Shown here piece after piece: positions 17,581-30,421 of a DNA stretch of 34,606 nt (within the stretch, counting starts at the first letter, position 1; each line of letters opens with the position of its first letter). The stretch is from contig WRKI01000349.1 of assembly GCA_009778155.1 (NCBI GenBank), positions 1 to 34,606 of the forward strand. Reading direction: 5' to 3'. The notes under the pieces are model-generated. The model was not told the DNA's origin. It made no database searches and was given only the letters and a program-made list of their open reading frames with translations. The translations under genes and the position numbers were made by a program. This DNA comes from Spirochaetota bacterium (GTDB lineage Bacteria; Spirochaetota; Spirochaetia; Treponematales; Breznakiellaceae).

Positions 17581-20500
17581 TTAATCAAACTCATTGCTTT
17601 CAAACTTCAGCACATGGCAATTCGTCTTTACAGTTCGTATTAAATCATCTGAAACACCTTCCGGGCAATGAACCTTAATATCCAGAGATACCTCTACTGA
17701 CACTCCAGGCAGTTGGTTAAAGTGCTGCAGTATTTCCGTGTTAATTTGACCGGCGGTTGATCCGAGCTTTGCAGGATCAAGTTTGACACTGCCATAAAAA
17801 TGAGTCGGCTTTGAGCTAGCCGCTTGCTGTGGCTTTATGCCGGGCAAAGATTGTTTGTCATCAAAAAGAAAAGTTTCATGAACTGATGATGCTGAAGTAG
17901 TATGGCCATCATCTGAAACTGGTGTTTCTTTGTTAAGCTGTAATTCGGCAATTTCCGGTTTAACAATAAGAGCGTCCATAGAAAAATGAAGGAACCCGGC
18001 GGAGCCGACAAGCCCCCTATATTTCCCGGCTGCATCAACATCTTCTGCATAATAAAAATATTCGCCAGAGCGGATACCCGCTTCCAATGCCTTTTCAAGA
18101 ACACTCCGGTCTTTAAGCCTGTGCAAATATACATATTGCGTATAATCTGCCCATAATTTTCTGACAGAAACATGATTTTTTTCCTGCCAAAGTTCTTGGC
18201 CTTTTTTTGACATTTCCATTGAAAGAATCTTTGGAGACAGAGATTCTATTAAAAGTTCATCCTGTTTCATTTTTTGGATCGCTTTCATTGAAGGGTTGTT
18301 CATTCCAGAAACCTTCATTTCTTTCAGAATAATCTCGTTTGCACCCTCTTGGACTGGAACAATGAGATGACACCATGCGTTTTGAATAAGCTCGCCAATG
18401 GAACGTTCTTTTTCTGATATTGCTTCATCAGTTTCCTTGCGTTGCGCAGTATCAAGATTTAAAAGGTCAGCATCTTTTTTAATTGATTCCCATGCAAGAA
18501 GCATTTTTGTTTCTTGACGTACATTGGAAAGCAACTCTGAATCCGGGGCTAGAAAAGCGATCATGTTACGGTGAATACGAGAAGAAGAACCGCGTTTTTC
18601 AAGATATTCTTTTGCAATAGACATCGCCAGAGAATTTGCATCATTTGGTTTATGCGACTCTGTAGCCCGGAGCAATACAAGATGAAAGTTTTGATCATCA
18701 GGAATGTCGGCCGATGATTTTACAGCAATATGGGCAAGACAAACAGACACCGGTACTTTGGCCAGTCTTTTTAACTCTGCTTCTACGGTGTCAATAATTG
18801 ATTCCGCTGATTGATGTTGAGTGCGATCTATTACAGTTTTACGAAGAGTCGGCCTAGTATCAAACCAATGACGGTTTTCTGAATGATATAAAAAAGTGAG
18901 ACTGTCTGCTAAAGCCCCCAGAGCGGCTTCATAAGCGGGAATGTTTTCCTCTGGCTGAATTACACCTAAGTATATGCGGCTAGAATCAATGCCACGGTTT
19001 TTTTGAGCACTGCTTGACGGGGCACTGCCTAAAAAAATTGTCCGGGCAATGCGGTTATATGCAAATTGTTTCTTGTAATACCCGCCTTGAGCATCATCAA
19101 GTTTTGCAGGCCTAGCATTTTTACCGTCTATTTCATTTTCAATGATAGGATTCCAGCCGTCTGAAAGATACCGTGTAAGTTCGTCGCGGATTGCAGGTTT
19201 GCCAATCGCAATAGAGCCGCCGGTAATCATTGCGCTGCCATCATTGTTGTCATATAAATCATAGATAACAGAGGCCATTAAGCGCAAAACGCCGCGGGTT
19301 CTTTGAAAGTGGTCTATGCTCGCCCAATCGTTGTAAAGCCTGTCGAAAATTTCCGGGTGAATAGGATAACATCGTTTCAATTTTTCCAGATAGTCTGATT
19401 CCTTGCATTCCGCAGGGAACAGCGACGAATTATTTTGATAGAGTGAAAAAAAAGCTTTACAAGTTCGTTCTACAGCTTCATTGTTTTCAATTGGCTTAAA
19501 AAGACGGCGGCGGACAATCTCGAAACTTTCTTCGGCAACAACCGGCTTCCAAATTGTTTGTATGCGGCCAATTGTTTTTTCGATACTTTGTTCGATACTT
19601 TTTAATGCGATATTTCCAGCTTCGCCGCCTGTCTCCGTTTCTGATTCTGGGATTGACACAACAACAATGCAATTGTTTGTTTTTTTGCTTGCTTCGGTAA
19701 GCTCCTGAAAAAAAGACAAAACATTTGCAAAAGTTCCCGCAGGAATATCCCCATGTTTTGTGTCGTAGAGCTTTCTTACATAAGCTACGAATTCATCAAT
19801 AAGTATAAGGCAGGGGGCGCTTTTTTCCAAAATTGCCTGCAAAGTAGAAGAGCCGGGGGAAATACCTTTTTTGTCTGCATCTTTTATTAAATCGTAAAGC
19901 TTAGGGTCGCCAGATTCTTCTGCAAGCTGGGCGGCCATTTCGCCCCAAAGAGTGTGAACCGTTATGCCGGGAAGCTTCACAGGGCGGCGCGATTTTGTCG
20001 GGTCTAAAGAAGTTCCGACAAGCGCGGCGACTTTTACTTTGGGCATCGCTTTAATATCTATTTCTGATTCGGTAAAAATTTTAGGAACATGGTGAAGTTT
20101 TTCCGGGTTAGCTGAACGCATTAGGTGATACAAAGCCAGCATACTGTGAGTTTTACCGCCGCCGAAAGCGGTTTTAAGCTGAATGACAGGTTCGCCGCCT
20201 TTGCCGCAAACACGCATTGCAGATTTTATCAATAACCCTTTCATGCCATCGGTAATATAAGTGCGGTCAAAAAATTCAACGGGGTCTTGGTATTCGATAA
20301 CTGCTTTCCCGTGCAAAACCTGGGAAAGGTCTGCGGCAAACTCCGCTTGCTGAAACCTGCCGTGGGCTACATCGGGGCGGGGTTCCGCAATTTGCCGCCA
20401 GGGTAGTGCGTAATTCGGCCCCGCAACCGGCGCCGGCCTGACAGCTTTAACAACTACGGTTTTTCCGCTAGGGCCGTCAATTTTAGTTCGCACTTCCCGC

Positions 20501-29900: not shown

Positions 29901-30421
29901 AACTTGCTGTACAGTTCGTCTTGCCACTGTTCAACAAGATTCCCCGGCGAAACGATGAGGCAGCGGTTTAAGTCTCCGCGCACTATCAGCTCCTTGATAA
30001 AAAGGCCGGACATGATGGTTTTACCCGCGCCGGGGTCATCGGCCAAAAGAAAACGCAAGGGCTGTCTGGGGATCATTTCCTTATAAACGGCTGTTATTTG
30101 GTGAGGCAAAGGCTCGATAAGGGATGTATGCACGGCAAGATGGGGATCAAAAAGATGCGCCAGCTTTATCCTGTATGCTTCGCAAGCAAATTTTACCTTT
30201 GCGGCATTGGCGTCAAATTTCCAGGGCAATCTTTGCGTTTCTATGGAAAGGCCAGCCAAGTCATCTGAATAGAGCAACTGGTTTCCTATGGAGCCGTCAT
30301 TCTTGCGGAAAAACACTTCTATAGCGTCTTCGTTAATGGGCTGGGTTGTTACTATTTGGACAGATTGTCCCGGAATTAGCCCATTTAAACGGTCGCCTTG
30401 CTTTATTATGTGGAAATTCAT
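26903..30421 (-). CDS. SNF2/RapA-like DEAD/DEAH helicase with C-terminal DUF3883 domain
   Basis: [107 protein letters not shown]; C-terminal [22 protein letters not shown]. Start at ATG 30421 ([15 protein letters not shown]); the supplied ORF extends to 30550. Confidence 0.92.
   Translation of the reverse strand: [1172 protein letters not shown]

Follow-up and report, generated by a model that had tools for sequence, protein, structure and literature searches.

Hma and Menshen in one spirochaete operon: a six-gene defence locus probably composed of two known systems

Six genes on the minus strand of a Spirochaetota contig (positions 17581-30421 of the window, the 34,606-nucleotide stretch analysed here, which is one entire contig out of the 353 that make up a 3.5 Mb assembly) are best explained as two separate defences in one operon, namely Hma with a complete Menshen system nested between hmaA and hmaB. 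We put the probability of this reading at about 0.8. It builds on the identities of the genes, their intact key motifs, their packing, the recurrence of the arrangement in other genomes and the exchange of whole modules at the site of the insertion. What looked like a novel system of six genes is hereby resolved into two known ones.

Table 1. Operon genes and terminator-like hairpin in the window
Feature	Coordinates	Strand	Remarks
hmaA	30421-26903	-	from ATG; ORF reaches TTG at 30550
nsnA	26892-25678	-	from ATG; alternative TTG start at 26910
nsnB	25681-24656	-	GTG start
nsnC	24644-23748	-	
hmaB	23751-20941	-	
hmaC	20931-17581	-	
terminator-like hairpin after hmaC	17465-17449	-	stem CCGCCTGAAAACGGCGG then T6 tail; pattern match only

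All six open reading frames are present and intact, and the close packing claimed in the preliminary description was borne out by junctions of -4 to +11 bp. NsnA/NsnB and NsnC/HmaB overlap by 4 bp each (GTGA and ATGA, respectively), NsnB/NsnC and HmaB/HmaC are separated by 11 and 9 bp, and the distance between HmaA and NsnA is +10 bp to the ATG or -8 bp to the TTG. A terminator had also been proposed after the last gene and was recovered by pattern match as a hairpin with a T6 tail. The scan yielded 24 such sites overall, close to the 19.9 +/- 5.1 found in shuffles, so that it is the position 3' of hmaC that speaks for this hairpin. GC3 is 0.35-0.43 in all six genes and about 0.48-0.73 in the flanking genes, and by their shared low GC3 the six genes form one compositional block. 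The left neighbours of the operon are metabolic genes (BKACE, thiolase, SDR), hemerythrin, NHL, TPR and SurE genes lie on its right, and no defence genes were found among these flanking neighbours.

Sequence comparison identifies genes 1, 5 and 6 as HmaA, HmaB and HmaC of the published Hma system. PADLOC matched HmaA with E=0 (1443 bits, residues 45-1207), HmaB with E=0 (1142 bits) and HmaC with 1.7e-290 over residues 177-1116, which confirms the assignment of helicase, methylase and ATPase to Hma that the preliminary description had suggested. HmaA carries the Pfam domains SNF2-rel_dom and Helicase_C and a C-terminal NOV_C domain (former DUF3883, nuclease-type; 7e-21), has the motifs DEAH and EVK, shows DDPGAGKT in its translation and has RapA as the closest solved structure. 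HmaB is a DUF1156 DNA amino-methyltransferase by Pfam, and its catalytic motif is intact (FxGxG at 118, DPPY at 535). HmaC is a DUF499 AAA+ ATPase with an N-terminal HEPN_Swt1 domain (1.2e-20, residues 11-133), in which the R-x4-H motif reads RHKIAH.

Hma was named in the PADLOC publication of 2021, where its methyltransferase was predicted to be of the m5C type (PMC8565338). A survey that treats Hma as the Type-1 DUF499-centred BREX-related system predicts N6 methylation instead (PMC12839542), and this prediction would seem to suit the DPPY motif of HmaB better. The window agrees with Hma of both publications in the HmaA-HmaB-HmaC order, the strand and the full-length PADLOC matches, and differs from it in having three additional genes in the hmaA/hmaB gap. 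The HEPN-DUF499 fusion of HmaC is likewise shared with the survey, which found it in 1370 taxa (PMC12839542), and a neighbourhood of HEPN-DUF499 with an SNF2 helicase-NOV_C/DUF3883 protein had already been described in 2013 (PMC3710099). The HmaC of genome G358 (L181:3360-6233) is 56% identical to the window protein over 173-1116 and has no HEPN domain; judged by length, the same holds for the HmaC of L179. The HEPN domain has been gained or lost inside one close clade. Another genome of the window's own genus (L036, G297:C55) contains a cut-off hmaA that is 54% identical to that of the window and fills a 2.9 kb contig.

The three inner genes are, by homology, a Menshen system consisting of NsnA, NsnB and a divergent NsnC, and no new extension of Hma. 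NsnA was matched by PADLOC at 2.2e-111 and by Pfam GmrSD_N (DUF262; ParB-Srx-like) at 6e-19; its DUF262 motifs QR63, DGLQR104 and FxxxN171 are intact, and a Pfam search gave no match to DUF1524. NsnB, an OLD/ABC-type ATPase, was matched over its full length at 1e-92. It contains AAA_15 and a C-terminal DUF3696 (3.7e-15) with the Walker A motif GLNSSGKS and the Walker B motif LLLLENP, and its closest solved chains are PtuA, OLD and GajA. In Menshen (NsnABC), for which Millman 2022 is cited in PMC10952713, mutation or deletion of DUF262 abolished protection (PMC10952713). The inner genes of the window resemble Menshen in having a DUF262 protein, an OLD-type ATPase with DUF3696 and a third protein in the same order and with the same overlaps. 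They differ in that this copy is not free-standing and in that its NsnC sits on a divergent branch which the PADLOC NsnC models match weakly (2e-6). A second, distant DUF262 protein is encoded in the same genome (G000:C181, L059:4228-5358; NsnA model E=3e-24), next to two ORFs (675 and 550 aa) that are unrelated.

The fourth gene had been taken for an orphan. The weak PADLOC match to NsnC (2.2e-6) is collinear, with 208-290 aligned on 207-292. When a profile built from third genes of the window clade was compared with 2455 ORFs from 87 Menshen loci, the non-seed matches were almost all third genes, the best complete gene reaching 4.7e-11, others 1.5e-9, 2.1e-6 and weaker values, and a split gene in L080 8.7e-25. 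Because the profile picks out Menshen third genes, the supposed orphan is a real though divergent NsnC.

A relationship of the C-terminal ~100 residues of NsnC to HigB/Gp49 toxins is likely but unproven. In four NsnC relatives the C-terminus matches Pfam Gp49 (HigB-type toxins) at 2e-9 to 6e-7, and a profile combining NsnC C-termini hits 6af3, a HigB toxin, at 4.7e-5. The profile of the window clade alone gave no HigB/Gp49 match, and the two NsnC groups, aligned by hhalign, scored no better than with shuffled columns, 2 of 50 shuffles scoring higher. Two AF2 models of NsnC were of good confidence (pLDDT 88.3 and 86.6). Three Foldseek searches with these models found no match to a RelE/HigB fold, and the model with pLDDT 86.6 gave nothing at E<=0.001. 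Since the hints come from sequence and neither Foldseek nor hhalign bore them out, we rejected the designation of NsnC as a clear BECR toxin. The 'ptuXYZ' system (mBio 2025; PMC11980606) comprises a DUF262 protein without DUF1524, a P-loop ATPase and a third protein that ends in a BECR domain (HigB/YoeB-like). Likened by description and not by sequences, it has the same three-protein architecture as NsnABC of the window, but its third protein has a BECR domain, a fold that structure search did not recover in the window NsnC. Judged by architecture, ptuXYZ seems to be another name for Menshen NsnABC.

The preliminary description of a variant with three extra genes inside the Hma core is literally true; nevertheless, the trio is a separate published system that stands alone on plasmids, in spirochaetes and, with a location outside Hma, in the majority of the 80 closest relatives by NsnA. 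Together with the PADLOC identities, these stand-alone copies rule out a new six-gene system. Stand-alone NsnABC of the window type is present in L075, where it adjoins a glycosyltransferase gene, and in L076, the NsnA proteins being 66% and 54% identical, respectively, to that of the window. Menshen also occurs beside other systems: in a type I R-M locus (L085:6146-16109), NsnABC is located between HsdM, which is accompanied by a further 443-aa gene, and HsdR, and in L093:6563-13190 it directly follows BREX PglX.

Menshen recurs in the hmaA/hmaB gap of other genomes. In the Treponema MAG locus L177 (= L116) the order is HmaA-NsnA-NsnB-NsnC-HmaB-x514-HmaC, where the third inner gene matches the NsnC model at 8.9e-55 and the 514-aa product encoded between HmaB and HmaC is Schlafen AlbA_2-like. 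In G358, a member of the window's own family, NsnA-NsnB-NsnC-HmaB is followed by HEC-01B and HmaC, with identities to the window of 58, 64 and 52% for NsnA, NsnB and NsnC. This locus is spread over contigs L183 and L181 with HmaB split between them, and L183 ends inside nsnA, so that an upstream hmaA is not visible. Both L177 and L183 are tightly packed as well. As the Nsn-HmaB order is repeated in two other genomes, it is not due to chance, and an assembly chimera is unlikely, given that L177 has both junctions and L183 has one. Of the two-part condition under which the preliminary description would have counted as refuted, one half fails, since L177 and L183 show that the order is shared with other genomes, and the other half holds, the inner genes usually forming a unit of their own in other places.

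In a tree of NsnA plus NsnB, the window groups with L075, which is stand-alone, and with L183 and L076, and L177 groups with the stand-alone L048/L105. One clade of all Hma-embedded NsnAB, the embedded group being defined from gene order and not from the tree, was rejected with a p-AU of 2.2e-8, which dismisses a single origin of all Menshen-Hma pairings and indicates at least two entries of Menshen into the hmaA/hmaB gap. In the HmaB tree L177 belongs to another starred clade than the window. The tree test thus reveals repeated entry of a given defence module into one and the same site of its host operon.

Other Hma loci carry different cargo or none. The hmaA/hmaB gap is empty on Meiothermus, Arthrobacter and Methylomonas plasmids (L156, L159, L162) and in L187, L188 and L237. 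It holds an AAA ATPase and AriB (PARIS) in Gloeocapsa, PtuAB (Septu) in Rhizobium and L242, PDC-S01 in L062, SoFic in L064, and HEC-09 or HEC-08 elsewhere. The hmaB/hmaC gap is loaded too, with AbiE, HEC-01, HEC-02 or HEC-05. PADLOC HEC models, which we take to be 'Hma-embedded candidates', were matched in several Hma slots. L184 (1094-5123), which comes from the genus of L183, has no Menshen in the hmaA/hmaB gap and encodes there a 925-aa Ppl and a Schlafen AlbA_2 protein. The HmaB tree places this Ppl-bearing L184 as sister of the Menshen-bearing L183/L181 (97*), and cargo has therefore been exchanged within one genus. Among the sampled genomes HmaB was found in 5 of 297 from the phylum, 13 of 396 from the order and 12 of 399 Pseudomonadota, and none of these 12 Hma-bearing pseudomonadotal genomes has Menshen in the slot.

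That defence modules can be embedded in Hma is already known from Septu (PMC12255303, citing the Payne 2024 preprint). Septu or PARIS in Hma (L155, L161, L242) resembles the window in being a complete two-gene module of ATPase and effector in the same hmaA/hmaB gap and differs in the cargo, which is PtuAB or AriAB and not NsnABC. No description of Menshen inside Hma turned up in the literature searched, which did not extend to bioRxiv 2024.01.29.577857 (embedded systems) and PMC12065111 (Menshen polymorphism and structure).

If the operon does combine two separate defences, HmaB would mark host DNA by adenine methylation, and the ATPase HmaC together with the helicase HmaA and its PD-(D/E)XK-like NOV_C domain would attack unmarked DNA. 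The HEPN domain of HmaC may serve as a backup RNase once restriction fails, as proposed in PMC12839542 and PMC3710099. Menshen would respond to its own trigger, independent of that of Hma: NsnA and the NsnB ATPase may act as infection sensors that set free an effector activity, which the toxin-like C-terminal domain of NsnC, DNA cleavage or both would probably supply. With a single promoter and translational coupling, the ratio of the two defence layers would stay fixed, and the block would be inherited and transferred together with the cargo in its slot remaining exchangeable. The composite of several sensor and effector activities put forward in the preliminary description is reasonable in the sense of co-expression; nothing shows a joint machine. 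The nested system might in addition guard the outer one, such that failure of Hma, for instance through a phage anti-restriction protein, triggers the Nsn proteins, and selection might have made the slot a docking site for guards. We consider such a functional pairing doubtful.

The six proteins might instead form one integrated machine in which sensing of unmethylated DNA by Hma switches the Nsn proteins and Menshen is the effector of Hma. The coupled junctions in both independent cases would fit this, as would the proposal that embedded OLD-ABC modules may need input encoded by the system, e.g. failure of primary restriction (PMC12839542). Menshen, however, stands alone in L075 and L076 in its window type and in L048/L105 among the closest kin of the L177 Nsn proteins, Hma is complete without it in L156, L159 and L162, and two genomes of one genus differ in their cargo (L183 versus L184), all of which makes an integrated machine quite unlikely. 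Neutral hitch-hiking, whereby Menshen came into the Hma operon by chance and its position affects neither system, would agree with the general clustering of defence genes and with the lack of Menshen in most Hma loci, including those of the 12 pseudomonadotal genomes, but is very improbable because the same gap was filled at least twice with overlapping or near-zero junctions and harm to neither reading frame, and repeatedly receives other complete defence modules.

With Hma and Menshen as separate systems, genes inside Hma are better read as cargo systems of their own ('guilt by embedding') than as Hma subunits, and the slot poses the testable question of whether a nested system is dependent on the outer one. 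The operon of this gut-type spirochaete illustrates a cargo-like stacking of defence systems.

An exact empty site for the operon was not found in the genus, where the left flank is seldom present and different genes follow SurE-TPR-NHL. Of 40 genomes of the genus, only 2 contain the BKACE-type gene on the left (16208-17128), and the left side, too, may therefore be a recent acquisition. On the right, the TPR gene of the SurE-TPR-NHL run (window 31158-34588) was matched in 36 of the 40 genomes. The run stays together in nine mapped neighbourhoods, and the variable gene after NHL is hemerythrin in one other genome (L209).
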